The notes under the pieces are model-generated. The model was not told the DNA's origin and searched no databases. It worked only from the letters and a program-made list of their open reading frames with translations. A stretch of DNA of 64,000 nt from Theobroma cacao. Lineage: Eukaryota > Streptophyta > Magnoliopsida > Malvales > Malvaceae. Positions 19,853 to 64,000 of the stretch are shown here, piece after piece. The translations under genes were made by a program, and so were the position numbers. The stretch covers positions 19,341,286 through 19,405,285 of the forward strand of contig NC_030859.1 of assembly GCF_000208745.1 (NCBI RefSeq), given 5' to 3'. The first letter of the stretch is position 1. Each line of letters starts with the position of its first letter.

Positions 19853-19891
19853 TAAAATGTCTTACGCATTTGAGAAGCGTAAGACATTTTA
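19853..19891. repeat. Perfect 15-bp hairpin inside a repeated module
   Basis: TAAAATGTCTTACGC, a 9-base loop, then GCGTAAGACATTTTA. Degenerate versions occur at the matching place in the modules near 20870-20905 and 21757-21795. The best stem is in this copy. Confidence 0.85.
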
Positions 19892-19982
19892 TGGAGAATA
19901 GAAAAAAATGCTCTTATATTAAACTTAGCAGTATAAGTTTGATGAATATTAATATATTTTTGTAAATTGATGAATTTTTTGC

Positions 19983-20216
19983 CTACTTCCTTGCCTTGAT
20001 CCTCTTCAACTTTTCTCGTGCTTTGGCTAGGGTTAACTTCTTTGTAGCATGAATCACAATTTTCACCGCATCAGCAAAAGAGTCGGGAAGTGATTCAAGG
20101 AAGATCAGTGTTTTTTCTTCTTCCGCTATCTCGACACGCAAACTCCTCAACTTGTCTATGATCTGGTCGAAGTCATTCTCGTGCTTGTTAAGGTCTTCAT
20201 CCTCCTTCATCTTCAA
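19983..20216 (-). pseudogene. Copia gag fragment (UBN2 type), second copy
   Basis: Contains LNKHENDFDQIIDKLRSL, EEKTLIFLESLPDSFADAVK and LAKAREKLKRIKARK, homologous to 18901-19293 and shorter. Right-hand flanks of the two copies (19220-19740 and 20220-20755) match closely, so this is a direct tandem copy with a period of about 1 kb. No 21-bp array lies on its left side. Confidence 0.75.
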
Positions 20217-24160: not shown

Positions 24161-24164
24161 GACG

Positions 24165-42710: not shown

Positions 42711-43554
42711 GAGTTTAAAGTTTTTAAGAGTTTATGTTATTATTTTCTTTGATTTTTTTTTCTTCTTTTCACTATCAATTACAAATTGACTAAAGCTATA
42801 ACTCTTTTATATTTTTTTCAATATAGATGTAAAAAACATTTTTCAAATATTTCAATTACATGATAAAGGTAATAGGATTATAGTTACTTGTAGTTAAGGG
42901 CTAATTAATTATAAGAAGGTTTTTTTAAAAATTTTGATTAATTAAATATAATAAAACCTTTATTTCTTAATTGCAAACTTTCTTTGGACACTAAATTAAT
43001 AATAAAGTCTAAACTACAATAATTTAAACAAAGACTCAGTTAGTCGAGCACTTAGGTGGTTGTCAATTCGGTTCCCAGGGAGTTCACTTTTTCATTGGTC
43101 ACTTATAAATTGGTTAATTCTATTAATTGAAAAAAAATTCAAAAGGGAAACCAATTAAGTTACTCAAATTAATCGACCTCATTAATTGAATTAACCAAAC
43201 CAATTTAATGGAAACTTGCCCTCTCTCTCTATCTCTCTTTATATATATATATAAAATATTTATATATATACTCATTAATTGAATTAACCAAACTGATTTA
43301 ATGGAAACTTGCCCTCTCTCTCTTTCTCTTTATATATATATATATATAATATAATAATATTATATAATAATATATATAATATTAATATATATATAATATG
43401 TATATAGAATCCTAAAATATCATAAAAATATATTATCCAAATAGTTTGACTAAGATACAACTTTTTTATATGTAAAATTTATATTATTTACACACTATCA
43501 TCATTTGTGTCTCTTCTTTTGAAATTTCGAACTACTATAATACAACTCTACTCA
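42711..43554. other. AT-rich interval with CT and TA microsatellites
   Basis: No gene. A 107-bp segment (CCAATTTAATGGAAACTTGCC then CT-run then TA-run, quoted in parts) occurs twice at about 43199 and 43306 in tandem. Long TA stretches near 43235-43400 follow. Confidence 0.75.
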
Positions 43555-43735
43555 AAAATAAAAGCATAGGACTTGAAAATTAAAAGCATAATACTTGAAA
43601 TTAAAAACATAACACTTGAAAATTAAAAGCATAACTCTTGAATGTTAAGAGAAATAACACTTGAAAATTAAAAGCATAATGAATGTGAACAACAATAACA
43701 CTTGAAAATTAAAAGCATAACACTTCAAAATTAAA
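43555..43735 (+). repeat. 21-bp tandem array, about 8 units
   Basis: Units of AAAAGCATAACACTTGAAAAT type, same family as 18505-18832 and 51888-51975. One unit is disrupted near 43680 (GAATGTGAACAACA). It lies immediately left of the antisense gag fragment. Confidence 0.88.
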
Positions 43736-43774
43736 AGGCCTAAAGTTAAACTTATTAATTGAAGCAGATGGAGA

Positions 43775-44017
43775 CTAAGTACAGGATCTTTTCTTGGAAT
43801 TTTTGTTGACTGCATTGCTGTCCGGAATGTTCTCTTTCTTGGTTCCCTTTAACTCTTCTCGTGCTTCAACTGGAGTTTTCATCTTTTCAGCAAGAATCAA
43901 ATATTCCACCTCATTAGTAAAAGAGTCGGGAGGTGATACAAGGAACACCAGTGCTATTTCCTCTTCCTTCATATTGACACCCAATTCCTTCAATGTATTA
44001 TTAAGATAATTATACAA
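43775..44017 (-). pseudogene. Copia gag fragment (UBN2 type), block A
   Basis: LKELGVNMKEEEIALVFLVS, PPDSFTNEVEYLILAEKMKT and EAREELKGTKKENIPD match the gag fragments at 18901, 19983 and 52047. It is truncated at its N-terminal side at exactly the same residue (the LGVN position) as the fragment at 52047, where the LTR-like sequence begins, so both share one ancestral junction. Confidence 0.8.
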
Positions 44018-44260
44018 ATAATTTAGTTAGAGTTATTAGATAATGCTATTGCCTAGTTAGATTAGGTAATTAGTTAAGAGTACTTAGACTATGAAAAAGA
44101 TTACGATTAGATTTTCTTTCTTTTTTTTTTGCTCAGCATTAGAATTAGACTTATATATATATATATATACACTTTATCCAGCCAGGTAAGATTTGTTAAT
44201 ACATAATTTACAGTTTTATATTATATAAGAATTTCTCTTCTTTTTAAATAGTATTAGAGC
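43994..44260 (+). repeat. LTR-like sequence and primer-site-like motif preceding RPT1 copy 1
   Basis: Starts TGTATTATTAAGATAATTAT at 43994 and ends before TAGTATTAGAGC (44249-44260), which differs from the tRNA-Met primer site TGGTATCAGAGC at two positions. The first RPT1 codon follows 16 bases later. The same arrangement is present at 52262-52440. No matching 3' LTR was found, so the LTR call is inferred. Confidence 0.5.
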
Positions 44261-44275
44261 TTTGTGTTTGATAAG

Positions 44276-44403
44276 ATGGTGGCACTGGTAAAAATGGTGG
44301 CTGAGAACAATCATCAGCCATTTGATGAAGACGATATCGCGTTATTGAAAACCTATGGTTTAGGTCCATATTCTAATAGCATCAAGAAAGTGGAAAAAGA
44401 AAT
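44276..44403 (+). pseudogene. RPT1: 26S proteasome ATPase RPT1 retrocopy 1, 5' part
   Basis: ATG at 44276 opens a frame whose residues from about 17 on ([28 protein letters not shown]) match the N-terminus of plant RPT1, the 26S proteasome regulatory subunit 7 AAA+ ATPase. RPT1 belongs to the base of the 19S particle and helps unfold and feed substrates to the 20S core. The first 16 residues differ from the conserved protein. A copia element is inserted after the codons KEI (TSD GAAAT), and the gene continues at 50577. No intron is present. Confidence 0.9.
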
Positions 44404-44848
44404 TGTTTCATTGTTTGCTAATGTTGGTATTTGGACTCTTGAACTAAAACGTTAATAAGCAATTAATTTTATTATTTTAGTTTTTGGATTAAATAATAAA
44501 AGGTTATTTATGAATAGTGCTTATTCATAAAACATCATGATTGAAGAGTTAGGAAAAAGTTACCTTATTACATAGAACTTTTGAGCAGTTAGAGATTATG
44601 AAAGGAAACTACTATTTAAGAGTTATATTATGAAAGGAAACAAGTCTTTCATTGAAAGACGAATACGTTGGCTTATTATATAAATAGCGTTCTTACACTG
44701 CCATTTTCACTATTTTGATAAGTGTGTTAAGGATTTTATTGTATTCTGGAGGTTGAGAAAATAACTTAAGGAAAGTGTTAATTCACACCCTCAAAGTCGT
44801 ACTTTTCTTTCTTCTCAAAATTTCTCCTTATTCTCAAATTTTGTAACA
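44404..44848 (+). repeat. 5' LTR of the copia element
   Basis: Starts TGTTTCATTG and ends TTTGTAACA. Pairs with 50132-50576. A TATATAAATAG box near 44679 and the following CT-rich stretch suit the promoter and R/U5 region. Confidence 0.9.
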
Positions 44849-44892
44849 ATCTTAAGGTATTCTCTGTAAAATTTTTTTGCAATTATTTCATA

Positions 44893-45800
44893 ATGGAGAC
44901 TGGGTTAGATTCAAGTGCGAAGGTTCACTTCAAAAATTAAGAAGTGAACAAACTTGATCAGTTCAATGGAACGAATTTCAGTAGATAGAGGGACAAGATG
45001 GTATTCCTATTAACCACATTGAAAATTTATTATGTTTTTTGAAACGGACCAACCATCAAATCCAAAAGAGATCATGCCAATAGAAGCAACATCTTTTGAA
45101 AACATCATTGCTATAACAACTGCTGCCATAACCACTACTGACGTTAACATGGAGAAACGAAAACATGACGAGTTTATATGTTGTGGATACATTCTCAATT
45201 CTCTCATTGATCGATTGTATGAACTCTGCAGACATAAGACTTCAACAAAGAAAATGTGGACTACACATGAGGAAACGTACAAAAAGGTACAGATAAATTT
45301 CTTGTATTGAGATACTTCGAGTTTACCGTGACAGATACCAAACCTATTATGGTTCAAGTACATGAGTTATGAATTCTAGCCTTTAAATTAAACAAATTGT
45401 AAATCAAAATTCCTGACTCACTTCAAGTAAGAGCATTTTTGTCCAAGCTTCCACCTTCTTTGAATAAATATAGGAAGAAAATTTTGCATTCTCTTGAAAC
45501 TTTTACTATTGAAGAGTTTCAAACTTGTTTGCATGTTGAGGTAGAAAATCGTGTTAGAGATGCACTCATTCTTGGGTCGTCAATGAAAAAAAAAAAGGTT
45601 CTAGAAAATTAAAAAGAAATAGAGTCCAAAAAATTGACTTTAAGAAATATAAGAGTGATAAAATATTTTATCATTGTAGAAAGAACGGACTTTTATCAAG
45701 GAGTGCAAGTTCAGAAATTTTGAAAATCTTGAAAACAAGATTGCTGTTTCTAGTTTTGGAAACAAAGTAAACCTCATTGAACATGATGTTAAAGAGCTTG
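44893..45800 (+). pseudogene. Copia gag, broken
   Basis: ATG at 44893 opens METGLDSSAKVHF and a stop. The core is readable across frames: KLDQFNGTNFS, DKMVFLLTTLKI, then in the frame 45032-45310 KRKHDEFICCGYILNSLIDR, LYELCRHKTSTKKMW, then ILHSLETFTIEEFQTC near 45487. The zinc-knuckle region near 45665 retains only traces. Numerous stops. Confidence 0.75.
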
Positions 45801-45805
45801 TTGCA

Positions 45806-46223
45806 ATGGTGACTGAAATGCATATTAGAATGGTTACCAAAGTAAACATAGCTACTGTAACAAAACATTCAGAACGGTGGTTAGATTTTGATGCTACTAT
45901 TCATGTTTGTAATGACAAAACGCAGTTCAAGAGTTATGAAGAACTCAAGAGACCAGAAGAAATTCTAATGGGGAACCATAATCCTGCTAAAGTGCTTGGC
46001 AAAGGAATGGTTAAGTTAAAATTTATGTCAAGGTAGAAATTAACTTTACTTTAACGTATTCCATGTTCCTGAAATGAGAAAAAATCTTTTGTTTGCACAT
46101 TTCTTGTGTAAGAATGGTTTTAAGATTGTACTAGAATTTGATAAGGTTGTAGTATAAAAAAATATTGTATTTGTTGGAAAAGGATATTCTTGTGACTGAA
46201 TAGTCAAACTCAATATCAATGAA
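45806..46223 (+). pseudogene. Copia protease, broken
   Basis: The frame 45806-46036 has WLDFDATIHVCNDKTQFKSY (normally WxxDSGAT.H), EEILMGNHNPAKVLGKGMVK and LKFMS. The DSG triad reads DFD, so the catalytic motif is lost. Downstream pieces (VYFVPEMRKN-like, near 46050-46090) are in another frame. Confidence 0.75.
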
Positions 46224-47232
46224 ATGAATAATTCTTTGCCGTATACTGTTGAGCTTTATTATGATTTATGGCATGTTGGATTAGGTAATTTAAATTTTCA
46301 ATCTTTAAAATTTATGTCAAGACATGGTTATATTTCATGTCAAAAAGATAGTTTTGAAAATTGTGAAATTTGTGTTAAGGCAAAAATGACTAAGAAACCT
46401 TTTCCAAAAGTTGAAAGAAAATCAAAATTATGAAAACTTATACATTTTGATCTTTGTAAACTAAATGGTTTACTGACAAAGGGAGGGAAAAGGTATTTTA
46501 TAATGTTCATTAATGATTATTCTTGCTTCACTCATGTTTATTTAATGAAAACAAAAGATGAAGCATTTGTCAAATTCAAGGAATTTAAAAATATTGTAGA
46601 ATATTAAAAAAAAAAGAAAATTAAAATTTTTCAAAGTGATAGAGGAAAAGAATATTTTCTAGACTCGTTTTTTTTATTTTGTAAAGAGAATGAAATAATT
46701 TATCAAAGAACAGCTCTTTATGCACCCCCAACATAATGGATTAGCCGAAAAAAAAAATAGAACGCTAGTAGATATAGTAAATAATACATTTTTAAATGTA
46801 AAGACCCTTTTAATCTTTGGGGAAAAGCACTTTTGACAGGATGTCATATGAGCAATAGAATTCCTTAAAAGAAATTACTTATGACACTATATGAATTATG
46901 AAATAATGGCAAAAAATCAAAATTTGAATTATTTTAAAGTGTGGGGGTGTCTAGTTTATTATAAAATCACATATTCTAATGAGACAAAATTAGGACCTAG
47001 AGGCATCAAAAGTATTTTTGGTGGTTATGCACAAAATTCAAAAGTGTATAGATTACTTAATCTAAATTTTAATGTTATAGTTAAATCTGTACATGTTGAT
47101 TTCTTTGAAAACAAATTTGTTTACAATTTTGCTAATTTGGAAAAAGAAAAGCAAGTTGAAATGGCTCCAATAGTTGGTGAAAAAGAAAAGAAATTAATGA
47201 ATCTATTGAGCCAAAAAGGAGTTAAAGATTGA
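46224..47232 (+). pseudogene. Copia GAG-pre-integrase and integrase, broken
   Basis: LYYDLWHVGLGNLNFQSLKF and CEICVKAKMTKKPF give the H..H..CxxC pre-integrase zinc region. Integrase follows after a stop: HFDLCKLNGLLTKGGKRYFI (first Asp box, reads FDL), FINDYSCFTHVYLMKTKDEA, IFQSDRGKEYF (second Asp), then in other frames the glutamate region near 46735, and FKVWGCLVYYKI and LGPRGIKSIFGGYAQNSK in the frame 46891-47232. Frameshifts occur at homopolymer A runs. Confidence 0.8.
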
Positions 47233-47257
47233 GAAAAGAGAAACATTTATATTCTGA

Positions 47258-48262
47258 TTATATTTCTCCAGAATCAATTGTTTTTCTAATTGAAGGAGAT
47301 AGAACCAAAATACTAAATAAAACATCAATTCTACTAAGTGTAGATGAAGACCCCAAAACTTTCAGTGAAGCAATGTCTTCAAGATATGCGGCTTCTTGAA
47401 AAGAAGTTGCAAATGATGAAATGGACTCAATAGTGTCTAATAATACATGGGTTTTAGTTGATTTACCTTTAGATTCTGAATCAATTGGATGTAAATGAGT
47501 GTTTAGAAGGAAATATAATACCAATGGTTTCATACAAACCTTTAAATTAATATTAGTTTCTAAAGGTTTCAAACAAACAAAAGTCATAGACTATTTTGAT
47601 ACATATGCTCTAATAGCTAAAATGACATCCATTAGAACACTTATAGCACTAGCTTCGATCTATAAGTTGCATATAAATCAAATGGATATTAAAACGACCT
47701 TTTTAAATAGTGATTTAAAGGAAGAAGTATATATGGAACAACCAGAAGGTTTTATACTTCCTAGAAATGAGAGAAAAGTTTGTAAATTGGTTAAATCACT
47801 GTATGGGCAAAAGCAAGGTCCTAATCAATGGCAAGAGAAATTTGACTCATCCATATTTCTTTATGGTTTTAAACATAATGGGGTTGACAAGTGCGTTTAC
47901 TCAAAATTTACAAAAAATTATGAAGTAATAATATATGTCTTTATGTTGATGATATGCTAATATTTAGCAATAACATGATCAGATAAATGAAACAAAGAAA
48001 TATTTAACCTTTGCATTTAAAATGAAAGATTTGAATGAGGTTGATACTATTTTGGGTATTAATATTAAGAAACATAATAGTGGTTATGTTTTTAATCAAA
48101 GTCACTATATTGATAAATTGATCAATAAATTTAAACATCTCAACATAAAAGAATTTAGTACTCCATATGACTCAAGTATAAAAATCATGAGAATGGTGAC
48201 CAAGTAATTACACAACTTGAATAAGCTAGGGCTATTGGAAGCATTATGTACGCTATGCATTA
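47258..48262 (+). pseudogene. Copia reverse transcriptase, broken and split by a TRIM
   Basis: The frame 47499-47960 contains KLILVSKGFKQTKVIDYFDT, TSIRTLIALASIYKLHINQ, MDIKTTFLNSDLKEEVYMEQ (Asp A), PEGFILPR and VCKLVKSLYGQKQGPNQWQE. A frameshift near 47940 leads to YVDDMLIFSN (intact YVDD), then the frame 48022-48207 with MKDLNEVDTILGINIKKHNS and YIDKLINKFKHLNIKEFSTP. The TRIM at 48263 cuts the LxxAIGSxMYxMN-like region, which continues at 48905. Confidence 0.85.
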
Positions 48263-48904
48263 TGTCACGGTCCACACCAACCCTTGTGACATATCGTTCG
48301 CTTTGGCCCGCTGGCTTCATGATTTTGTCCCACAAAAGGCACCTCATAGGTTAAAGGTGGTGTGAATCCTTATATTCCTAATATCACTCTAGTACATAGC
48401 CAATGTGGGATTCATGACTCCCTTCTTTAGGACCTTGACATCTACCTTACTCCCCGCTTGGAGTTTCTCTACGATGTGAGACTTTATGGCTTACTCGTTA
48501 AGAGCATTATCTCGACGATGTGGGATTCATGTTTACGCGAGGAGCATGACATCCTCCCCCACTTCAACAAGGGTCCATTATCCTTAGTGGCACATTGCTA
48601 GTACTCAGAGTCTGCTCTAATACCAATTGTCATGATCCACACCAACCTTGTGAGGTATTGTCCCCTTTAGCCCACTGGTCTCATGGTTTTGTCCCACAAA
48701 AGGTGCCTCACAGGTTAAAGGTAGTGTGAACCCTTATATACTCAGTATCACTCTAGTACATAGTCAATGTGGGATTCATGGCTCCCATGACATCCACCCT
48801 TACTCTTCGTTGAGAACTTTTCTTTGATGTGGGACTTTGTGGCTCACTCATTGAGAGTATTATCTCGATGATGTGGGATTCACGTCTACAAGAGGACCAT
48901 GACA
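48263..48904 (-). mobile_element. TRIM (terminal-repeat retrotransposon in miniature), 642 bp
   Basis: Two direct repeats of 289 and 277 bp (48263-48551 and 48628-48904) start TGTCA and end TGACA, with CATTA duplications at 48258-48262 and 48905-48909. On the minus strand a primer site TGGTATTAGAGC (48614-48625) adjoins the 5' LTR and a polypurine tract GAAGTGGGGGAGGA (48552-48565) adjoins the 3' LTR. There is no coding capacity, as in all TRIMs. It sits inside the copia pol gene and must use enzymes of another element. Confidence 0.93.
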
Positions 48905-49567
48905 CATTAAACTAGGCCAAATATTGTATTTGCAATCGACAAATTATCAAGATATACAAGTAGGCCTCATAAAATTCATTAGAAAGCCATTAGGAGAGTT
49001 CTTGGATATATTTAAAGAGCTAAAAATTTTGGCTTACATTATTCAAACTATCCAAGGGTATTAATAGGATATTTTGATGCAAGTTGGATTACTAGTGTAA
49101 ATGATAACAAGTCCATTTCAAGTTGGATTTTTACAATAGGAGGTGGTGCCATTAGTTGGACATCTAAGAAACAAACTTGCATCTCACATTCAATAATGGA
49201 GTTTGAGTTTATAGCTTTAGCTATAGCAGGAAAGGAATCGAAATGGTTAAGAAATTTGTTATTAGATATAGAGTTGTGGCCATAATCGATGCTAGCTATT
49301 TCCTTATATTATGATAGCACTGCTACAATGTCTAAAGCATATAGTGATGTCTATAATAGAAAATCTAGACATATTAGTTTAAGACATGATTATATTATAG
49401 AATTAATTTCTAGTGGGGTAATTACCATAACATATGTTAAATCTGCAAGTAATTTGGCAAATCTTCTAACAAAAGGTTTACTAAGGGATTTGGTAAGTAT
49501 TACTACAAAAGGAATAGGTTTAAGATCCTTATTAGACACCAATAGTGGGAACCTAACTTTTAACTAG
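48905..49567 (+). pseudogene. Copia RT end and RNase H
   Basis: Resumes after the TRIM with VFAIDKLSRYTS, then VLIGYFDASWITS (first RNase H Asp), SWTSKKQTCISHSIMEFEFI (Glu box), SLYYDSTATMSKA (Asp; usual W-CDNxxA is degraded), and SRHISLRHDYIIELISSGVI, YVKSASNLANLLTKGL at 49289-49567 (final Asp box, reads SNLANLLTK). A stop near 49285 separates the two halves. Confidence 0.85.
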
Positions 49568-50131
49568 TAACCTCTAATTACAAAGTTCAATGGGTAAAAA
49601 CAAGTTATTGTTATGTGTTTGTGATGCACTATTAGAATCCATTCCTTAAAATCTTGTTTGAAAATAGTGCAATCCATTGCATATAAAGGTTGAGCTTATA
49701 CTCTTAATGGAGTTTGAATATTGTATTATGGGAAGAAAAATGTCTAGAGTAATAGGGACATTAATGAAAACTCCACCTAAATAAACATAAGGAGTGGTGC
49801 CGCTTCAATAAGAAGAATTTGGAGATTCTCTTGTAAATGTTTATTATGAACAAGATAAGCACATGGCTATTATGGTGCTAAAAGTGAATGACCACTTACA
49901 AAAATATAAATGAATATTATGAGTGATGTATCTTTAATTTTAACACTAAGAGTCGAGATTCAATCTTTGGGCACCATTTACTTCATTAGGGTTTTGAGAT
50001 GCATTCACTAATTCATTGTTTAAAGTGAGAGATATCTTCTTGTATGCATAAAATTTATTTGTGTGAAAGGTAGAAACATATATATATATATATATTATAA
50101 GAAAAGCCAACATTTCAAATTAGCAGGGAAT
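49568..50131 (+). other. Copia 3' untranslated region
   Basis: Non-coding, between the end of RNase H and the 3' LTR. It contains a short TA run near 50080. No further gene. Confidence 0.6.
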
Positions 50132-50576
50132 TATTAGATAGTTTGCTAATGTTGTTATTTGGACTCTTGAATTAAAACGTTAATAAGCAATTAATTTTAT
50201 TATTTTAATTTTTGGATTAAATAATAAAAGGTTATTTGTGAATAGTGCTTATTGATGAAAAGTCATGATTGAAGAGTTAGGAAAAAGGTATCTTATTACA
50301 TATAACTTTTGAGTAGTTAGATTATGAAAGGAAATTACTATTTGAAGAGTTATAATATGAAAGAAAACTAGTCTTTTCATTGAAAGATATATACGTTGGC
50401 TTATTATATAAACAATGTTCTTACACTACCATTTTCACTATTCTAGTAAGTGTGTTAAGAATTTTATTGTATCCTGGAAATTGAGAAAATACTTTAAAGA
50501 AAGTGTTACTTCACGCCCTTAAAGTCAGACTTTTCTTTCTTCTCAAAATTTCTTCTTCTTCTCAAATTTTCTGACA
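50132..50576 (+). repeat. 3' LTR of the copia element
   Basis: Collinear with the 5' LTR from the GTTTGCTAATG block to TTTCTGACA. Its first bases have drifted (TATTAGATAG instead of TGTTTCATTG). It is preceded by AGCAGGGAA, a weak polypurine tract. Confidence 0.88.
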
Positions 50577-51362
50577 GAAATCAAAGAGATGGCCAAAAAG
50601 GTGAATGACCTTTGTGGTATCAAAGAATCAGACACTGGGCTAGCTGCACCAAGTCAATGGGATCTTGTATCAGTTAAGCAAATGATGCAGAAGAAGCAAC
50701 CTCTCCAAATTGCAAGATGCACAAAAATAATCAATCCCAACACAAAGGATGCTAAATATGTTATTAACGTAAAGCAAATTGTTAAGTTTGTTGTGGGGCT
50801 AGGTGACAGTTTCCCCCACTGACATAGAGGAAGGCATGTGTGACCATGATGACTGTGGAGGAGAAGCCTGATGTCATGTCACCTATAATGATGATGGTGG
50901 ATGCAAGGATCAGATTGAAAAGATACGAGAAGTTGTTGAGCTGCGCATGCTACATCCTGAGAAATTTGTTAAGCTTGGGATTGATCTGCCTAAAGGTGTT
51001 CTCTGTTATGGTCCTTCTGGAATTAGTAAGACCCTTATTGCGAGGGCTGTGGCAAAAAGAATAGATGATTGCTTCATCCGTGTTATTGGAAGTGAGCTTG
51101 TTTAGAAGCATGTTGGTGTGGGGCTAGGTTGGTGCAAGAAGTTTTCCAGATGGCACGTTCCAAAAAAGCATGCATCGTGTTCTTTGATGAAGTTGATGCT
51201 GTTGGGGTGCACGTTTTGATGATGGTGTTGGTGGAGATAATGACGTGTAGAGAACAATGTTTGAGATTGTCAATCAGCTTGACGGGTTTGATGCCCGTGG
51301 AAACATCAAAGTTCTGATGGTAACTAACAGGCCCGACACCTTGGATCCTGCAAATTTCTGAA
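50577..51362 (+). pseudogene. RPT1: 26S proteasome ATPase RPT1 retrocopy 1, 3' part
   Basis: Resumes with [20 protein letters not shown] and runs in frame to [19 protein letters not shown] sequence near 50805. Then come a frameshift, a deletion of about 65 bp after EEGM near 50838, [27 protein letters not shown] and a Walker A box altered to [12 protein letters not shown] is followed by a TAG, then a Walker B FFDEVDA stretch, and the copy ends at TNRPDTLDP near 51350, about three quarters through the protein. Several shifts exclude a product. It is contiguous across what are multiple exons in plant RPT1 genes, so it is a processed copy. Confidence 0.92.
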
Positions 51363-51395
51363 CAAATATTTCATCCAGTTCTATGATTAGAACTA

Positions 51396-51780
51396 AGAAG
51401 AGCACATATGGGGTTGCACACTTACATTATTTTAAAGGTATTCAATTGTTCAATTTGAAAATGACAAAATATAAATGAGAAGAGCACACATGGGGTTGCA
51501 CAGTTGCATTATCTTAAAGGTATTCAATTGTAGAATTCGAAAATGACGAATTACAACTGAGAAGAGCACACATGGGGTTGCACACTTGCATCATCTTAAA
51601 GATATTCAATTGTCCAATTCGAAAATGATGAACTAGAACTAAGAAGAGCACACATGGGGTTGCACACTTGCATCATCTTAAAGGTATTCAATTGACTAAT
51701 TCAAAAGTAATGACTTAGAATTGAGAAGAGCCACGTGGGGTTGCACACTTGCATTATCTTAAAATATTCGGTAAATCTGG
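51396..51780 (+). repeat. 82-bp tandem satellite, about 4.6 units
   Basis: AGAAGAGCACACATGGGGTT starts units at 51396, 51478, 51560, 51642 and 51724, an exact 82-bp period. Each unit also has GCACACTTGCATTATCTTAA and GGTATTCAATTG. It follows the truncated end of RPT1 copy 1 directly. One isolated unit is found at 24165-24226. Confidence 0.93.
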
Positions 51781-51887
51781 CTTTAAAATAATCACCCTAT
51801 ACAATAGTTGTCCAATTCGGAAATGACATAAGAATTTTGGTAAGAGACTTGAAAATTAAAATTATCACACTATATAATATTTGTCCA

Positions 51888-51975
51888 ATTCAAAAATTAA
51901 AAGCATAACACTTGAAAATTAAAAACATAACACTTCAAAATTGAAAGCATAACAATTGAAATTAAAAGGCCTCAG
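51888..51975 (+). repeat. 21-bp tandem array, about 4 units
   Basis: AAAAGCATAACACTTGAAAAT-type units, same family as the two larger arrays. It lies left of the antisense gag fragment of block B. The sequence between the array and the gag (AGACACGGGGCTTTCAGATC, ACCGGAGTCTTGATCCCTAG) is also found at 18850-18900. Confidence 0.85.
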
Positions 51976-52046
51976 GTTAAACTTATGAATTGAGACAGCC
52001 AGAGACACGGGGCTTTCAGATCAACTAGGTACCGGAGTCTTGATCC

Positions 52047-52259
52047 CTAGGATCGTTTCTTGGAATTTTCGCTGACTGTATTGCTGTCCGGTATATTCTC
52101 TTTCTTGGTTCCCTTCAACTCTTCTCGTGCTTCAACTAGAGTTTTCATCTTTTCAGCACGAATCAGATATTCCACCTCATTAATAAAAGAGTCGGGAAGT
52201 GATGCAAGGAACACCAGTGCTATTTCTTCTTCATTTGTATTCGCACCCAACTTCTTCAA
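52047..52259 (-). pseudogene. Copia gag fragment (UBN2 type), block B
   Basis: KKLGANTNEEEIALVFLASL, PDSFINEVEYLIRAEKMKTL and EAREELKGTKKENIPD are nearly the same as 43775-44017 and share its truncation point, the 21-bp array on the left and the LTR-like sequence on the right. It is the block B copy of the composite unit. Confidence 0.8.
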
Positions 52260-52261
52260 TT

Positions 52262-52440
52262 TTTTTATTATTAAGATAATTATACTAATAATTTAGTTAG
52301 AGTTATTATACAATACTATTATCTAGTTAGACTAAAATTATTTAGTTGAATAAGAATAGGATTAACCTTTTATATATATACACAATAAGGTAGACAATTA
52401 AGATATATCAATACATAATTAACTTGTAGTTTCATCAGAG
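52262..52440 (+). repeat. LTR-like sequence and primer-site-like motif preceding RPT1 copy 2
   Basis: TATTATTAAGATAATTATAC at the left and TTTCATCAGAG then TTTTGTGTTTGATAAGATGG at the right parallel 43994-44280. The ATG and three codons of RPT1 copy 2 follow (MVAD, stop). Then part of the LTR-like sequence is repeated (52468-52514) before the RPT1 body begins. Confidence 0.5.
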
Positions 52441-52514
52441 TTTTGTGTTTGATAAGATGGTGGCTGATTAAGATAGATATACACACTAAGGTAGACAATT
52501 AAAATATATCAATA

Positions 52515-53003
52515 CATAATTAACTACACAGAGGATGCTAAATAGGTTATTAACGTAAAACCAATTGCTAAGTTTGTTATGGGGCTGGGGGACAAAGTTT
52601 CCCCACTGACATAGAAGAAGGCATGCGTTTTTGGTTGGATCGCAATAAAAATCAGATACAGATTCCCTTACCTCCAAAAATTGATCCAAGTGTGACCATG
52701 ATATCTGTGGAGAAGAAGCCTGATGTCATCTATAATGATGTTAGTGGATGCAAGTAGCAGACTGAAAAGATGCGAGAAGTTGTTGAGCTGCCCATGTTAT
52801 ATCCTGAGAAATTTGTTAAGGTTGGGATTGATCCGCCTAAAGGTGTTCTCTTTTGTGGTCCTCCTGGAACTGATAAGACCCTTCTTGCAAGGGCTGTGGC
52901 AAATAGAACAGATGCTTGCTTCATCCGTGTTATTGGAAGTGAGCTTGTTCAAAAATATGTTGGTGAGGGAGCTAGGACGGTGCGAGAAGTTTTCCAGATG
53001 GCA
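52515..53003 (+). pseudogene. RPT1: 26S proteasome ATPase RPT1 retrocopy 2, truncated
   Basis: Begins at the codons TEDAK followed by a TAG, then [27 protein letters not shown] region, [36 protein letters not shown], then the frame 52770-53003 with [40 protein letters not shown] and [20 protein letters not shown]. In Walker A (GPPGTDKT) the conserved second Gly is Asp, which should abolish ATP binding. It retains the 65-bp segment that copy 1 lost. The copy is cut in FQMA by the Tat element, and the rest is expected beyond that element, outside the window. Confidence 0.92.
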
Positions 53004-53136
53004 GTGTACACACAAATTTCTCGTCGAAATTTCTTGACTTGAAAATTATGAGACAAATACAAAAATTTGATGAAGTAAGTGATGATCTCTGAAAATTTCT
53101 CTGATTAATTTCTTCAATTTATCTTCAAGAGTCGCA

Positions 53137-53290
53137 AACTTGGACTTAGTCTTGATCACGAACGTACTTGATCTTCGCGTCAAGGGTCTTCACGACTTAG
53201 TCTTGATCACGAACACTTGATCTTCGCGTCAAGGGTCTTCACGACTTAGTCTTGATCACGAACACTTGATCTTCGCTTCAAGGGTCTTCA
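53137..53290 (+). repeat. 49-bp tandem repeat, about 3 units
   Basis: CTTAGTCTTGATCACGAACA, then CTTGATCTTCGCGTCAAGGG and TCTTCACGA, with starts at 53137 (51 bp), 53188 and 53237, then a decaying fourth unit. Shorter CTTGATCACGAACTTCG words continue to 53400. Confidence 0.9.
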
Positions 53291-53619
53291 CGACTTAATG
53301 TTGATCACAAACACAATATCTTGATCACGAACTTCACTTGATATCTTGATCACGAACTTCGTTGCCGCTTGATCACGAACTTCGTTGTTGCTTGATCTTC
53401 ACTTCAAAAATCTTCTATTCTTCTAGATCTCTGAAATGCTCTCAATCTTCAAATGCTCCCAATCTTTGAATGCCTCTGAATTTTCGAATGCCTCTCAATC
53501 AATCCAAATGGCTTGGGGGAGCCCCCTATTTATAATGTTTGGTGGGAGACTTTGATGAGAATGTAATGTCTTTGAATTATCTCAAAATTATTTTAATTTA
53601 TTTAGAGATAAATTATAAT

Positions 53620-53990
53620 GACTCATTAAAAGTCTTTTGATTGGCCGGACCTTGAATCCTTGAATTTTGATTGGCCGAAGTTAGATATTATCTCTAAATT
53701 ATCTCAATTTATTTAGAGATAAATTAAATAATCCAATTTGACTTTTATCTCTAAATTAATATAATTATTAGAGATAAATTAAATGGCCAATAATTAAATT
53801 TTGATTGGTCAAAAATATGAATATTATCTCTAAATTATCTTGATTTATTTAGAGATAAATTGGATGACCAATAACTAATTTTTGATTGGTCAAAAATATA
53901 AATATTATCTGTAAATTAAATTGATTTATTTATAGATAAATTGAATGACCAATAACTAATTTTTGATTGGTCCAATCTAAATATTATCTC
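53620..53990. repeat. Tandem AT-rich repeat with internal palindromes, 85-95 bp units
   Basis: Units such as TTGATTGGTCAAAAATATAA, ATATTATCTCTAAATTAT, TTATTTAGAGATAAAT recur four to five times. TTATCTCTAAAT and ATTTAGAGATAA are inverted within each unit. Located in the U3 side of the minus-strand LTR. Confidence 0.8.
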
Positions 53991-54866
53991 AAGGGATAAA
54001 TATATACCAATAGGAGATTTGGTTCAACTATATGTCTTTAAAATAATCCAACCAATAAATTAATTATTTTATAATTAATTACATGGTTATGACATCATTA
54101 AATCCACGTGGCGGCACGTAATTGGCTGATAATTTTTTTCTCCTTCTACAAATGCGCCCTCAAGACTTGTTCACACATGATTTTGAATGTGACAAGTGGA
54201 CAAGTCTTGAAATTTTAAAATTTTTAGGATTTCTTAAAATCCTAATGTGTCTTGGTATACTTGCAATCCAAATTAAATTTGAATTATGCTTACTCATTAG
54301 TAAGAGAATCATAATCTTGGAAGATGTATATTGCAATAAAACTATTTGAAGAAGTATATTGCAATAAGACTATAATTTTGAAAGAGGTATATTGTAATAA
54401 AACTATTTAAAGAAGTATATTGCAATTAGGATTACATTCCTTAATCAACAAGGACTTTGTCTTTTTACTCTAGAAAAAGGGAATTCCCTTGTTAATTTTC
54501 TGCACATCAAAATATTGGAATCCACAATATTTTGGTTGCGATTGCTGCAGTTCGTGCTCCAATTCATGGTTGAAGACCGGTAGATTTGAGATTTCCCCAA
54601 CGTTAAGCAAAAGCCGCCTAGTTCTTGTTGGTAAAAATATCTTTACTTTCTCAATTCTTATTTTGTTTACATGGTAAACCGATGCAAAATTTCCTTGCCA
54701 CGTTTCAAGCTATGCAAATAATATTTTGCCACACTTTTGATCCATGCAAATTGCCAAGCAATTGCAAATTATTATGCTAAAAAAAACCATTGCCAAGCCA
54801 CGTTTCAATTGTCATGCAAGATACTTGAATTGAAGTGGGAGAAATTGGCAACAATTTAAAGTAGTG

Positions 54867-55079
54867 CTCTTTACAATAGCACTTGTTGATCCTTGGGGGG
54901 TGCTCTTTAAAATAGCACATAATTTATTATCCTTGGAGGGTACTCTTTATCATAGCACTTGTTGATCCTTAGACGGTGCTCTTTATACTAGCACACAATT
55001 TATTATCCTCGGAGGGTGCTCTTTATAATAGCACTTGTTGATCCTTGGGAGGTGCTCTTTATACTAGCACACAATTTAT
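54867..55079 (+). repeat. 76-bp dimeric repeat directly upstream of the PMD start codon
   Basis: Alternating 36-bp and 40-bp halves: CTCTTTACAATAGCACTTGT, TGATCCTTGGGGGGTG and CTCTTTAAAATAGCACATAA, TTTATTATCC, TTGGAGGGTA. Almost three dimers, ending within two bases of the ATG at 55081. The position suggests 5' UTR or promoter sequence of the antisense gene. Confidence 0.88.
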
Positions 55080-55080
55080 C

Positions 55081-58043
55081 ATGGTATACTTCAAGGACTT
55101 CAAAAATCAACTTGTCATTCTTTCGAACAAGGATGAAGATATGAAGAAGGGGTTGTTTCTTCCCATGGCGAGACCTATAGTTGGTCGTTTTTTAGCATCT
55201 CAACCACTTAATGCTCCTACAACTTTAGAAGAATGGACTTCTAAGCCAATCAAGATCTCACAATCTTCTTCAATAGCTCGATGTCTCTGATCTTATCTTC
55301 ATGACAAAACTTTCAGTCAAGAGGAATTTATCACATTGGCAAGCCGTATAATTTCTGGTGAGGCTTATTAGGGTAGTTCTTTCATGATCAATGGAGAATT
55401 TAAGTATATTCCCAAATATTGGGAGTGGACTGAAGATGTGTTATTTCGATATGAGAAGCTTTTACGTGACATGAAGATGGCAGATGCTATTTTCGCATCT
55501 TTATATACTTATGATCGTAACAAAGATGTCATTCGAGCATTTTGTGAGAGTTGGTGTCCAACCACGAACACCCTTCATATCGCCTTTGGGGAGGCTTCCT
55601 TATCATTATGGGACTTGCACAAATTGGGTGGTCTTCCTATTCATGGTTGGTTTTATGATGAAGTCATTCCTTCCACTAAAGAATTGATTGGCATTGGTGC
55701 TAATGGGAAAAGATTTCTTCCAAAAAGTTGTGAATACTTATTTGCTGCCTTTCATTATTTACACAAAAGAAGCGATGGTCAAGGCAAAGTCTCTATTGAC
55801 AATTGGATCAACTTTTGGTTTCAAGGTAAATTACGCTATCAAAAACCTCTAGCTCGTAAAGCTAAAAAGTCAACTCGCCCTAAAGCCACACACAACCCTA
55901 CTGGAGTTATCAAAAAACATGAAGCTTGGGCCTCGACTGGAGCTAAGGCATGCAGCGCACTTGGTGTTAAAGAAAATCATGAGGCTGATACGTATTTGGT
56001 TGCTTTCTTTTCTTGTTGGCTATGTGTATTTGTTTTCCCCAGTATAGAATCTATCATTTGACTTGAGACATTTAAGATTGCTAGCCTTATAGCTACTGGT
56101 TCTAAAGGCATTAATCTTGCCATTCCAGTGCTTGTCCATATCTATCGAGGGCTTGATCAGATTGCCCTTTCTACTCAAGCTAGTTCTTCGGATGCATGTT
56201 TTCCTATCCATTATGTTTATGGGTGGTTGGGTCATTATTTTGAAACTCATTTTTCGACTCCACAAGTAGTAGTTGGACCCATGATGGTGAAATTCTCTGG
56301 AGAAGGTGGGGCTAAATATTTTTGTGAACAAGAAGCTCGTAACTTGATTCATACAAAATTAGTATGGGATGCAAATTTATATTCCAAAAATTGAGGTGAG
56401 GTTATCCTTGACACTAGACCACTAGATCCTTCGCGACATGATTATTTAGTAAGTGTTCGTTCGAGCTACTTGCCTGTTCGATGCCATAACACTATTATTA
56501 TAGAGCCATATAGTCCTCATCGATTTGGAAAACAATTTGGCTTTTGTCAAGATATTCCTGGAAATCTTAAGACTGATATTCACTTTGGCTCAGTGGATGA
56601 CTTATTGAAATTTTGGCAAACTTGCACACTTTCTAATACTCAGTCTAGATTAATTTCTCCAGCTCGTCCCTTGGATATTAATGATCATGTCACCACGAGT
56701 TATATGGAATGGTGGTCCCAAGTTCATAATCCCTTCCTTGAACATAATGTTGAAGCTTTGATCTCTAGTACCCATCAAACTCCATCCAAACGCTCAAGAC
56801 TACAAAAGGAAAAGCTTTCCAAAATAGAACAAGGCGAGAATCAAATGCTTGTTACAACCAATTTCTCTAGTAAAGACGAACACCATGAACCTTCAAAAGC
56901 ATAAAGCCTTCAATTGCTTCCACTTACAAATGCTGAACAAGGAATTCTTGAGAAAATTTCTGGGCACCAAGGTGCAATAGCTATTGAAGATTCTGATAGT
57001 GAAACTGATCGTGAGAAACATTAGAAGCGAGTCACACCAAAGAAACAAAAGGTATCATACCCTTCTGGCTTTTCATTTCTTGAAGACATTCCGAGTTTTT
57101 TTTTTTACTTCCAGAAAACTTCAATGGCTTGGTCATTTCATCATGAATTTGTGATCTTTTTTTTTTTTTTACTGTTTTGTGGAACTAACTTTTATTCATT
57201 TTTTTTAAGCTTCAAAGCCAGGTTCCAACCAAAGAGGTTATCGATGAAGTAGTTCCTACTATTAGTGTAGCTTTAGTTTCTAATCCTCATGGATTTAACA
57301 AGCTTGCAACAGAGATAGGAAACTACTTTGCTCAAGAGACTTCAAACGCATCTTCAAGTCAAGAAAATATTTCTCCTCATGTAATCACTAAGGAAATTGT
57401 TGATGCTTCTAAGAGTATGCCCGAGTTGTGTGCCGAGGCTAGTCATCTTGCACTTCCAGAAGCTTCTAAATTTAGTGCTAATAAGGTAATCCATGATTGT
57501 CATTCAAAGCTTATCATGACCTTATGGGAGAGCATTCAACAAAAAATTGTCAAAACTCCCTTCGATCAAGTTTCTTCTCTTACCATTGAGGTTCAAAAGG
57601 TTCTTGATGTAATAGAAAGGGTTGAGACTGTAGATTCATCCTCATTAAGGAACATGGTCCAAGAATACTTTGGACAAGTTCACAAATTTGTTGACCTCGA
57701 ATCATCCTTTAGTAGTGCATCTTCAAAAGATCAAAACGAGAAGCTTCAAAGATTTGTTATTCGTCTCACAAATGAGGAGTCTTTTAAGAGTAAATTTGTT
57801 GAGGAGGCTGATGGTTTGCAAGCTGAATTAACAAAACTTGAAGAGGAAATAGATGCTTTGTATCACAAGAAGGATCAAATTGAATCTTCTCTCAAAGTAA
57901 ATAAAGAAAAGGTGCAAATGAAGGAAGCTAATATTTCCAAAATTAATGAAGAGATAGCTTCTATCAAGTCTTCTCCTATTTTAAGTGAAAGCGAAGTCAA
58001 TTCCTTAGCATTGTTACGAAATATGTTGGAATCTTCTCGATAA
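55081..58043 (+). pseudogene. Plant mobile domain (PMD) protein gene carried antisense by the Tat element
   Basis: ATG at 55081 and two exons, 55081-57051 and 57210-58043, give one frame of 934 codons that never shifts but holds six premature stops (55288, 55369, 56059, 56392, 56902, 57022). The PMD (PF10536) spans roughly residues 100-480: DVIRAFCESWCPTTNTLHIA, FGEASLSLWDLHKLGGLPIH, then VSIDNWINFWFQGKL, VYGWLGHYFETHF and DIHFGSVDDLLKFWQTC. The C-terminal exon is coiled-coil-like (LQAELTKLEEEIDALYHKKD, then KVQMKEANISKINEEIAS). PMD proteins occur in host genes such as MAIN/MAIL1 and in transposable elements; the molecular role in the element is unknown. An AATAAA lies 124 bp after the stop. 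Confidence 0.88.
57052..57209 (+). other. Intron of the antisense PMD gene
   Basis: A GT at 57052 (AAACAAAAG|GTATCA) and an AG at 57208-57209 (TTTTTTTAAG|CTTCAA) bound 158 T-rich bases. The upstream frame ends on a complete codon at 57051 and the downstream frame starts with a complete codon at 57210, so removal joins the two otherwise different frames (phase 0). Confidence 0.8.
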
Positions 58044-58166
58044 GAACTAAAGAATTTCAAGTGGAAGCCTTGATTTGATTACTTCCTTATTCATATAGCT
58101 CTATTTTGTTTCTAGGATTTAAACCTTTAAAATTTTCTTTCACATTGTAATGCATTTCGAATTAGC

Positions 58167-58172
58167 AATAAA
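58167..58172 (+). terminator. Poly(A) signal of the PMD gene
   Basis: AATAAA, 124 bases after the PMD stop codon, in T-rich sequence. The integrase stop codon lies about 510 bp further right, so the two convergent transcripts could end without overlap. Confidence 0.55.
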
Positions 58173-58521
58173 GATCAATTTGTTTTTCTTATTGCTTTTC
58201 TTTGCTTGTGAAGAAATTTAAAAGATAATCCTATGAAATCTTCAACATACTTTATGCTTCACAAAATTTTTTGGACACTAATTGAACTTCAAAACAATTC
58301 AACTTGCACTTGCAATTTAATTGATTGAATCGCGTAACTTGATAAAGAAGTACAAACTTGATTCATTCTTCAATCTTCCATCTTGGTAGCTTCATCATCG
58401 TAAAGAATTGAGCCATGCTTGATGCAAGAGATTTTTTTTTTGATGTGATTGAACTTGGCAATGGGACCAAGCTGCCTACGTACCTCTTAATACAAAGAAG
58501 GATCAAGTCATAACGTAGTTC

Positions 58522-58538
58522 ATATATATATNNNNNNN

Positions 58539-58576
<38 letters not shown>
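58522..58576. repeat. TA microsatellite with a 7-N gap
   Basis: TATATA run of about 50 bases interrupted by N at 58532-58538; true length unknown. It lies between the convergent PMD and pol genes. Confidence 0.95.
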
Positions 58577-58580
<4 letters not shown>

Positions 58581-58678
58581 CCTTAACTTTTGCCTAAGTA
58601 GTCCTATTAAGGATTTTCAACTTAGCAGGCTTTTTTTTTTTGATGTAGTTTAAGCTCTTACTGAGAAGCATTTGACCT

Positions 58679-59735
58679 TCAAGCATAATAACGTTTCAAG
58701 AATCTGCCATTGATTGGGCCAACTCTTACTCCATCTTGATCAACAATTTTGTATGTGCCATTAGTGTAGACTTCTTGAACAACATATGGCCCATCCCACT
58801 TTGAAAGGAATTTATTACCCATATGATGTGTAGTGTTTATGGGTCTTCGCACTGCAAGAACTAAGTCTCCCACTTGGAATGATCGTGGTTTAACCTTCTT
58901 GTTGAAAGCTTTAGACAATCGAGCTTGATAACATTCTAAGCGTTGTTGTGCTTCTAACCTTTTCTCATCCAATGCTTCAAGTTCTTCAAGGCGTAGGTGA
59001 ACATTATCTTCATTTGAAAAGCCTTCTTGAATGGCAATTCTCAATGATGGAATTTGATGCTCTAATGGGAGGACAGCTTCCACACCATAAACAAGCGAAT
59101 ATGGAGTTGCTTGAGTAGGTGTACGAAATGTCGTACGATAAGCCCATAAAGCTTCCCCTATTTTCTCTGGCCAATCTTTATTTGCGCGAGTAGCAACTTT
59201 CTTGAGAAGATTGCACAAAGTCTTATTAAAAGCTTCTGCTGATCCATTTGCTGGTGCATGGTACATAGAAGAATTACATTGCTTGAAGTTAAATTGTGCA
59301 CATAACTTCTCCATTGCGAATTGTTTTCCATTATCTATTATGATGCATCGTGGCACGCCATAATGATAAATGATATTTGTTCTAATGAAGGTAGCAATAG
59401 TTTCTTTCTTTACTTCTCGATAAGAGGCTGCTTCTGCCCACTTTGAAGAGTAGTCTGTGGCTACGAGTATGTAGAGATGCCTTGTGGAACTCTTAGGTAA
59501 TGGTCCAACCAAGTCGAGTCCCCAAGCATCAAATGGCCATGATGTAACTGTTGGGTGGAGTGGCTCAGGGGGCTGATGAATGAAATTGGCATGAAATTGA
59601 CATGCTTGACATCTTTTAGCATAGTCCATGCTATCCTTCACCATTGTTGGCCAATAGTACCCCATTCTTTTGATTTGGAAGTGCAACTTGGCTCCAGATT
59701 GATACGCCCCACAAATTCCTGAGTGAGCTTCTTGT
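58679..59735 (-). pseudogene. Tat integrase
   Basis: After a frameshift near 59735 (the preceding frame reads past HSGICGAY-like sequence in the wrong phase) the frame holds LHFQIKRMGYYWPTMVKD, CQACQFHANFIHQ, the first Asp in FDAWGLDLVGPLPKSS, the second in CIIIDNGKQFAMEKL and the Glu in ANGSAEAFNKTLCNLL, i.e. a complete DDE core, then WAYRTTFRTPTQATPYSLVY and a GPY/F-like end (FLSKWDGPYVVQEVYTNGTY, stop after RFLKRYYA at 58679). The domain itself has no stop over 335 codons. The function in the family is insertion of cDNA. Confidence 0.92.
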
Positions 59736-60540
59736 AAAGCCTTGTTGCTTTTTCATCTCCTAAACAGCGAAGAAAAACTTTGTCAAAGGAACGACGATAG
59801 AGTGTACCTTTGAAATAAATAAATTGAGAAGCTCGACGTTTTATCTCTGTTTTATGTCTTGGATCATTAGGAAGCTTGCCATGCTCTAGATAGTCAATCA
59901 ACGGTTGTCGCCAATCTTTTTTTCCCACTTCAAAGACTGAGACGACATTAGACTCTACGTCGACTTCTTCACTTAGAGTGATTGGTGGTATGATCCATTG
60001 CTTGCAAAGATGCACTTTTAATTCTGTATTTGGTGAGGCAATTGCTGACGCTAAATTAGCCAAAGAATCTGCTTCCCTATTTTCTTTTCTAGGAACATGT
60101 TCTATCCTAGTTTTGTCAAACCACTTCAAAAGTTTTTTAACATAGTTGACAAATGACAAGAGCTTAGGCTTTTTAACTTCATAAAGTGTAAGGACTTGGT
60201 TTATAACCAACTTAGAATCTCTAAACACCTTAAGTTGAGTGATTTGCATATCCACTGCCATTTCCAAACCTATGATCAAGGCTTGGTATTCTGCCACATT
60301 ATTGGAACAATTTTTGATGAGAGTAAATGCGTAAGACAATACTTCTCCTTCTGGGGTGATAAAAATGACTCCTGCACCTGCCCCATCTTGTTGAGCTACT
60401 CCATCAAAGTATAACTTCCATGGCCTAGGGATTTCAATGCAAAGAACATCTTCATCTGGGAGATCTTCAAAAAATTTCCAATCATATGGAATTGGATGGT
60501 CTGCAAGAAAATCTGCAAGTGCTTGTCCCTTGACAGCTTT
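59638..60540 (-). pseudogene. Tat archaeal-type RNase H (second RNase H)
   Basis: After a TAA at 60541 the frame is open for 300 codons. WKLYFDGVAQQDGAGAGVIF (Asp), NNVAEYQALIIGLEMA (Glu), LKVFRDSKLVINQVL (Asp) and PRKENREADSLANLAS (Asp) give a complete acidic tetrad. A second RNase H of this type, between the normal RNase H and integrase, is diagnostic for the Tat clade. The rest of the frame up to 59638 is the integrase zinc region in part, ending out of phase. Confidence 0.9.
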
Positions 60541-60948
60541 TTAAGGGATATATGTGATATCGAACTCTTGTAACAAAAGAGCCCATTTTGCCAATCTCCC
60601 ACTTAGCACTGATTTTGACATAAGATACTTGAGGGGATCTGCTCGTGAAATTAAGTGCACAGAATGAGCTTGCAAATAGTGCCTTAATTTCTTAATGGTA
60701 AACATTAATGCCAAGCATGTCTTCTCAATGGGAGAATAATTTAATTCTGCCCCATTAAGAGTTCTACTAAGCTAGTAAAGTGCATTTTCCTTTCCTTCAT
60801 CGTTTTTTTGTGCCAAAAGTGCTCCTAAAGAGCATTCTTGTGCTGCAACATAGAGGATTAATGGACGTCCTGGTGTAGGAGCCCTTAAAACTGGAGGCCT
60901 TAGTAAATAAGATTTTATGCTTTTAAAAGCATTACTACAAGACTCATC
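60541..60948 (-). pseudogene. Tat classical RNase H
   Basis: Between the TAG at 60949 and the TAA at 60541: SNAFKSIKSYLLRPPVLRAP, LILYVAAQECSLGALLAQKN (first box; Asp replaced, YVAAQE), a TAG at 60772, LSRTLNGAELNYSPIEKTCL (Glu box) and LRHYLQAHSVHLISRADPLK, LSGRLAKWALLLQEFDI. As in other Tat elements the first RNase H is degenerate at the active site while the second keeps its tetrad. Confidence 0.85.
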
Positions 60949-63966: not shown

Positions 63967-64000
63967 GATTTTGTCTTTTAAGACAAAACATTTTTCAATG

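Follow-up and report, generated by a model that had tools for sequence, protein, structure and literature searches.

LTR-mediated retroposition by template switching has been described for plants (PMC5408686, PMC4838847); examples of retrocopies flanked by LTR segments are RC_AT3G08580.2 in Arabidopsis and, of the seven cassava retrocopies whose mechanism was inferred, three. A second system is Bs1 of maize (PMC13317346), an element in which segments of three host genes are found. The locus analysed here, a cluster of RPT1 copies on C10 of Theobroma cacao, resembles the plant retroposition cases in that a spliced host transcript is joined to sequence of an LTR element, a tail is lacking and template switching is proposed; it differs from them in that segmental duplication multiplied the retrocopy alongside a satellite and in that the right LTR is partial and is followed by a PBS-like motif. 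With Bs1 it has in common that pieces of host genes lie within or next to an LTR element, whereas the RPT1 cluster involves one gene, displays no mobile element and has no copies found outside the cluster. The cluster is most likely a readable example of a known plant gene-copying route and not a new mobile element; the parent gene, the LTR family, both mRNA junctions and the later duplications can all be read, which allows models of LTR-linked mRNA capture to be compared at the base level. Among the titles listed by our literature search, none concerned proteasome subunits captured by LTR elements. In the W-linked PxyMasc retrocopies of Plutella, too, the retrocopies of one gene are gathered in one chromosomal context; there, according to the title of PMC9674220, silencing RNAs from the copies target the gene.

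The window (the whole stretch of DNA analysed, 64,000 nt) holds two blocks, A and B, with a common order of 21-bp array, antisense copia gag piece, LTR-like sequence, PBS-like motif and RPT1. Block A is made up of a 21/22-bp tandem array (43554..43737, plus strand, found by TRF), the C-terminal piece of a copia-type gag cut at the LTR (43738..43993, minus strand, from translation and homologue comparison), a copia-type LTR (43999..44248, plus strand, from alignment to LTRs at other places), the PBS-like motif TAGTATTAGAGC (44249..44260, plus strand) and RPT1 copy A, whose 5′ part (44294..44403, plus strand, aa 14-47 matched) and 3′ part (50577..51352, plus strand, aa 46-325, disrupted by frameshifts and stops as well as by an internal deletion) were found by tblastn and by alignment to the host mRNA. 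An 82-bp satellite of 4.6 units follows at 51386..51763 (plus strand, TRF). Block B repeats the array (51893..51968, plus strand, TRF), the gag piece (52049..52259, minus strand, 90% to block A), a shortened LTR (52266..52430, plus strand, 91% to copies C and E and 84.7% over 111 columns to L038) and the 5′ part of RPT1 copy B (52526..53004, plus strand, tblastn and mRNA alignment); this copy has lost the start of RPT1, and the block's own LTR part occurs a second time between LTR and RPT1. The ATG at 44276 had been placed at the head of the coding sequence in the first-pass annotation; it is in frame with RPT1 but sits in the LTR leader, the gene's own start codon being 44294.

The gene is identified by a 78-aa stretch (50586-50819) whose best PDB chain, 8amz_H (E 6.4e-39), is the 26S proteasome regulatory subunit 7. 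The parent RPT1 gene (L031, C6:20722700-20728700) has 10 exons, with GT-AG boundaries fitted to the RPT1 protein P0004. In alignments to the host mRNA, nine of the nine exon junctions, taken across seven C10 copies, are fused, which confirms the intron loss proposed earlier; the common upstream order of the two copies is confirmed as well. Copies A and B are intronless relics of the intron-bearing C6 gene, and the C10 copies are processed retrocopies, with the parental introns absent and an intron-bearing parent elsewhere; they are pseudogenes. Divergence from the host gene is 7-9%. The differences fall most frequently at third codon positions (30/62 in A, 23/50 in B and 28/60 in E), an excess that is expected if much of the change is change of the host gene and that leaves the copies' own neutral age uncertain.

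The LTR-like part, which the first-pass annotation had guessed to be a real LTR, belongs to a dispersed family. Of 50 matches in the genome, 42 come from outside the cluster and mark about 34 places (a lower bound), most of them over the first 60-90 bp; identity is 61-69% over longer stretches and up to 89% over 60-90 bp. The LTR of copy A can be aligned, for the greater part or the whole of its length and at 63-67% identity, with LTRs at other places, for example L040 (224-481), L037 (485-746) and L039 (185-414). The family is old and its sites are accordingly degraded. One of the eight places read (L036) holds a pair, the other seven having been seen as 600-1000-bp stretches only: two LTRs, with TG..CA ends partly degraded, stand 779 bp apart, with a PBS-like TGGTAACAAAGCC and a purine-rich GAAAGGGAG before the second LTR, both assigned by motif. 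The internal region of about 0.5 kb makes L036 TRIM-like. PBS-like motifs occupy the same position behind the LTRs of L036 and L038, as had been claimed for block A. We read the TAGTATTAGAGC motif as a primer-binding site of the tRNA-Met type and base the label 'copia-type' on the PBS motif and the LTR form. With a pair, a PBS and a polypurine tract recognizable as motifs in L036, the LTR-like sequence belongs to a copia-type LTR family. The first-pass annotation had said that its model would fail if this sequence never occurred apart from RPT1 or never as a pair, or if the host locus had it upstream; it occurs both apart and paired, and in the 600 bp read upstream of the host RPT1 gene no LTR was seen, which over that length rules out the cluster's upstream sequence there.

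The junctions with the mRNA are most complete in copy E, which reaches the natural C-terminus of RPT1 and lacks aa 77-266. On the left, LTR-PBS-leader adjoins RPT1 in A, C and E. On the right, RPT1 homology in copy E stops 9 nt past the stop codon, at 173586, leaving almost no 3′UTR, and LTR homology begins at 173587-173600 depending on the partner, directly abutting RPT1; the same LTR thus appears here again, but in part (only the last 62-75 bp), followed by the PBS-like TGGTAATAGAGC and leader. We saw this right LTR part in a single lineage (E, with C after a deletion). No poly(A) is found at the 3′ junction of copy E, an absence that may also be due to decay. Upstream of mRNA position 54 similarity to the host 5′UTR is weak; in stretches chosen by eye, 99 of 5000 shuffles for E and 42 of 5000 for A reach the observed score. 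LTR sequence abutting the mRNA part and the lack of a poly(A) tail are the marks of LTR-mediated retroposition, and the combination of poly(A) with a long TSD that marks an L1-type retrocopy is not seen, with no poly(A) at the 3′ junction of copy E and no TSD noticed in reading the sequence.

We consider it probable that RPT1 mRNA was captured once, in a link with an LTR element and by template switching, and that segmental duplication followed. Spliced mRNA of the C6 gene would have been reverse-transcribed together with the RNA of a small copia-type LTR element, the template switches being inferred, as is the start of the right-hand LTR piece at the 5′ end (R) of the RNA; the product, LTR-PBS-leader-RPT1 (from the 5′UTR to just past the stop)-partial LTR-PBS, would have been set into a local array-gag module. 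Local duplication of DNA and recombination would then have multiplied the block, either jointly with the 82-bp satellite or next to it, and a copia element and a 14-kb LTR element would later have broken it up. Behind this model stand several observations: the introns are lost, an LTR family and PBS-like motifs are recognized, RPT1 is bracketed in copy E, the copies share their junctions and, as far as two DNA searches could detect, they form a single cluster. Against it, the block, with its right LTR partial and followed by PBS and leader, is unlike one simple integrated element, and no TSD was seen to enclose it. A tail could also have been lost during about 8% divergence.

Copy E may even preserve a first strand transfer that failed, a tentative reading that we regard as rather doubtful. 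Having run off the 5′ end (R) of an LTR-element RNA, reverse transcriptase would have landed not on the 3′ R of the element itself but on the 3′UTR of an RPT1 mRNA; after copying this mRNA in full it would have returned to an element leader, so that R-U5-PBS came to flank the gene on either side. Alignment to A puts the start of the right LTR piece 17-36 nt downstream of the TATA stretch (44151-44170 against 44187), and alignment to L036 puts it 33-43 nt downstream (508-518 against 551); the piece thus begins at a plausible transcript start, which supports this reading. Since leader follows the right-hand PBS, priming would have taken place elsewhere than at that PBS.

The same junctions bear on the possibility that a LINE-type processed RPT1 pseudogene landed in an old LTR/PBS region, its tail then decaying and its contact with the LTR being coincidental. 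L1-like retrocopies are known in dicots (PMC4838847), the divergence from the host gene leaves room for tail loss, and the flanking LTR-PBS could be one pre-existing element, or a tandem, with RPT1 inserted inside. However, copy E without poly(A) and nearly without 3′UTR, the abutting of RPT1 and LTR homology on its right and the abutment at PBS-leader on its left make this unlikely.

The unit had been described as present twice in tandem; we count seven copies, each of them partial, in a stretch of about 129 kb on C10 and always on the plus strand. In two genome-wide DNA searches, at whose sensitivity the single-cluster result holds, 23 of 23 and 19 of 19 RPT1 matches fall on the C6 host pair or in C10:19385583-19514871, and none elsewhere. 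The gag-LTR-RPT1 order recurs in four copies, so chance is no explanation. The gag and array flanks are common to A, B, C and E and the satellite junction to A, B, F and G, all outside any LTR. One shared non-host base is found in every covering copy (two or more) at 21 sites, and in only some copies at 22. These shared junctions and the 21 sites support the earlier claim that the unit was assembled once and then duplicated. Some of the 21 sites may be changes of the host gene.

It was most likely through duplication of DNA, and not as a mobile element, that the RPT1 unit multiplied. A Bs1-like composite retrotransposon carrying RPT1 and copying itself by retrotransposition, the form in which the unit had first been cast, could draw on the LTR and PBS-like motif beside RPT1, on the several copies and on RPT1 piece D, which is contained in a 3.3-kb element (TSD AAAGG), although this piece and unit C, 3 kb apart, are 99.1% identical. 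We hold it to be very improbable, given the confinement of all copies found to one stretch and one strand and the shared flanks outside any LTR; moreover, no enclosing TSD or complete LTR pair was recognized around RPT1 in reading the rearranged block. Local duplication can give rise to blocks of gene, LTR and satellite such as a short window shows, a warning against reading them as mobile composites. Least credible of all is duplication of the host gene as DNA with later intron loss: C6 carries RPT1 as a tandem pair (the C10 copies being nearer to the gene at 20723 kb than to its neighbour), so such duplication happens, but all nine introns are absent at the junctions and alignments to the host gene gave no intron sequence on C10 beyond short chance-level matches.

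The antisense gag, the 21-bp array and the satellite are local sequence, and the gag comes from an interrupted local module. The 21/22-bp array recurs at 18504-18837, 51893-51968 and in the flanks, and the satellite at 24122-24230 and 67228-67683; all three components are also present without RPT1 (18504-20617, 24122-24230 and the flanks), with uninterrupted array and gag modules lacking LTR-RPT1 at 18504..20617 (minus strand, junction comparison). The gag had been said to be cut at the same residue in both blocks. The cut is there, also in C and E, two further copies outside the window: four of the nine modules aligned (A, B, C and E) are cut at this point, and five, the query included, continue past it, which rules out the fragment as part of the LTR element. 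The block A piece alone matches no Pfam family and that of block B does so weakly (E 0.0036, under the cut-off); the gag label of block A rests on uninterrupted homologues that match PF14223 (18901-19293, E 5.9e-13; 20.1 kb, E 1.3e-14). For a gag-like stretch at 81.7-82.0 kb no Pfam family was matched. A genome-wide DNA search with gag gave at least seven matches, six in the cluster neighbourhood, a lower bound since local alignment turns up further modules; apart from C10:19546875 (minus strand) and C10:6074346, the matched places were read. The satellite does follow copy A, as noted before, but it follows copy B too, and arrays away from RPT1 rule it out as attached cargo; it is a local repeat.

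Two later insertions interrupt the blocks. The copia insertion proposed in copy A is real: a Ty1/copia element (44404..50576, plus strand, RVT_2 E 1.4e-33) has LTRs at 44404-44848 and about 50132-50576 that are 88.9% identical, and is flanked by TSD GAAAT (44399-44403 / 50577-50581). Both RPT1 copies had been called truncated, which is right in that they are partial; however, truncation is secondary, since copy B is split by an insertion and copy E reaches the natural C-terminus. Truncation of copy B at 53003 is ruled out, as RPT1 resumes at 66996 beyond an LTR retrotransposon of 13,991 bp (53005..64000 and on to 66995 past the window; left LTR 53005-54150, LTR identity 92-94%, TSD GGCAG at 53000-53004 / 66996-67000). 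This element has RVT_1 and rve on the minus strand and PMD on the plus strand; the 3′ part of copy B behind it (66996-67197 in window coordinates) is followed by the 82-bp satellite, as in copy A.

RPT1, the gene for a 26S proteasome ATPase, is represented on C10 by seven copies, all partial, rather than the two counted in the first-pass annotation. The DNA covered was the window (C10:19341286–19405285), whose gene content is that of a plant, with 110 kb leftward and 116 kb rightward; since N accounts for ∼41 kb of the first 284 kb, flank counts are lower bounds. The two copies in the window, A and B, do share the order described for them: 21-bp array, antisense copia gag piece, LTR-like sequence, PBS (primer-binding site)-like motif and RPT1. 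The RPT1 homology is firm: the best PDB chain for 50586–50819 is 8amz_H, 26S proteasome regulatory subunit 7, and amino acids 119–259 of copy B align with the plant RPT1 protein P0004 at 84% identity.

A copia element (44404–50576; TSD GAAAT; LTRs 88.9% identical) divides copy A, and inside this element, at 48263–48904, a 290-bp sequence is present in two direct copies (79% identical). Copy B, previously called truncated, is instead interrupted by a 13,991-bp LTR retrotransposon (TG at 53005 to CA at 66995; TSD GGCAG; LTRs 92–94% identical); beyond it, from 66996, the RPT1 sequence continues and, like that of copy A, leads into the 82-bp satellite. In the 14-kb element, the minus strand encodes reverse transcriptase and integrase, and the plus strand has ORFs for the plant mobile domain (PMD). 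Both are later insertions, because both split RPT1.

The other five copies lie right of the window, all on the plus strand: D (77571–77825), C (80930–81414), F (127693–127971), G (128874–129071) and E (172870–173586). The gag-to-LTR junction is common to A, B, C and E and the RPT1-to-satellite junction to A, B, F and G, while amino acids 77–266 are absent from both E and C. Copy D belongs to a 347-bp LTR-PBS-RPT1 piece that matches unit C, 3 kb distant, at 99.1% identity. This piece is enclosed in a 3.3-kb element at 76842–80136 (C10:19418127–19421421; ends TGTAACA/TGTTACA; TSD AAAGG), where it would represent a second, recent capture or a conversion. Left of copy F stands a different sequence with PBS-like TGGTATCGGAGC, repeated at 69269 and 130791, which we infer to be an LTR end. 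This sequence and fragment F lie within 127600–127971 (C10:19468885–19469256), F immediately to its right; its PBS-like TATGGTATCGGAGC and the left flank of that motif are seen again at 69269 and 130791, with a variant at 99899.

Host RPT1 genes form a tandem pair on C6, ∼10 kb apart (C6:20713997–20716398 and C6:20723293–20726854). The second, L031, which was the one read and is taken as the parent, encodes an intact 426-aa RPT1 in 10 exons; the first shows 75–89% identity to the retrocopy query sequences. The supposed intron loss was confirmed, as all nine parent introns are missing at the junctions, taken across copies. In the 600 bp examined before the L031 start codon there is no LTR-like sequence. 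The copies differ from the parent at 7.1–8.7% of CDS sites, with all codon positions affected and differences commonest at third positions in the three longest copies. Copy A has frameshifts and stops. The C10 copies are pseudogenes.

Searches of the genome (324.85 Mb in 431 contigs) with RPT1 from A and from E gave 23 and 19 matches, respectively, every one in the C6 pair or in C10:19385583–19514871. Very common words were skipped and scoring was limited to the best candidates, so short RPT1 fragments may be missed; at the sensitivity of these two DNA searches, no RPT1-carrying element transposing around the genome was found.

The LTR-like stretch had been proposed to be a real LTR, and this holds. 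Of its 50 matches genome-wide, 42 lie outside the cluster, spread over ∼34 places; eight of these places were fetched and read. At one of the eight, L036, PBS-like TGGTAACAAAGCC and purine-rich GAAAGGGAG lie in the short internal region between two LTRs 779 bp apart. L040, L039, L037, L041, L036 and L043 align with block A at 63–67% over most or all of the LTR length. The family is old, since most genome-wide matches span only the first 60–90 bp.

In E and C the left junction consists of the PBS-leader followed by RPT1 starting 7 nt upstream of the start codon. Similarity ∼12 nt further upstream is weak (shuffle control 99/5000 for E and 42/5000 for A, with stretches chosen by eye). Copy A has lost ∼24 bp of this region and retains the start codon; copy B lacks the RPT1 start, and a partial second copy of its own LTR precedes RPT1 there (52473–52525). 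At the right junction, seen in E, RPT1 reaches the stop codon plus 9 nt and is followed by the last 62–75 bp of the same LTR, then by PBS-like TGGTAATAGAGC and a leader of ∼30 nt that also occurs at the LTR-matching place L038 (71% over 115 columns). The right side of copy C is as in E, after a deletion fusing RPT1 near amino acid 354 to the LTR part. We looked for poly(A) at the RPT1 3′ junction of copy E and found none. The right LTR part begins 17–36 nt downstream of the TATA stretch in the alignment to A and 33–43 nt downstream in that to L036; a start near the expected RNA start is suggestive only.

At 21 sites, one and the same non-host base is present in every copy that covers the site. 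These sites and the shared junctions support a single retroposition event; at some of the 21 it may be the host gene that has changed. By divergence, A, F and G are 3.9–5.1% apart, C, D and E 0.8–3.7%, and B is separate at 6.8–9.7%, a grouping which implies that duplication started early and went on. Most likely, RPT1 mRNA was captured in linkage with the LTR by template switching, and the unit would then have been multiplied by local DNA duplication. Passages in PMC5408686, PMC4838847 and PMC13317346 already describe such LTR-linked capture in plants and animals; an earlier report of the RPT1 cluster was not found among open-licence PubMed Central papers.

We also considered gag as part of the LTR element and rejected this. 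In A, B, C and E, gag ends at one common point. Five modules extend beyond that point; they lie at −7.6, 19.0 (the query), 20.0, 81.8 and 174.1 kb, and for the last two the alignment falls into two pieces. A genome-wide gag search gave seven DNA matches, fewer than local alignment detects, six of them in this neighbourhood. The shared cut set against the continuing modules, with mostly local matches, thus makes gag an interrupted local module. The satellite is found in the neighbourhood without RPT1. Uninterrupted array and gag modules are present at 18504–20715 and at −7646 to −7070, and such modules have few DNA matches genome-wide. Those at 19.0 and 20.0 kb are in direct order, with similarity reaching several hundred base pairs past gag.
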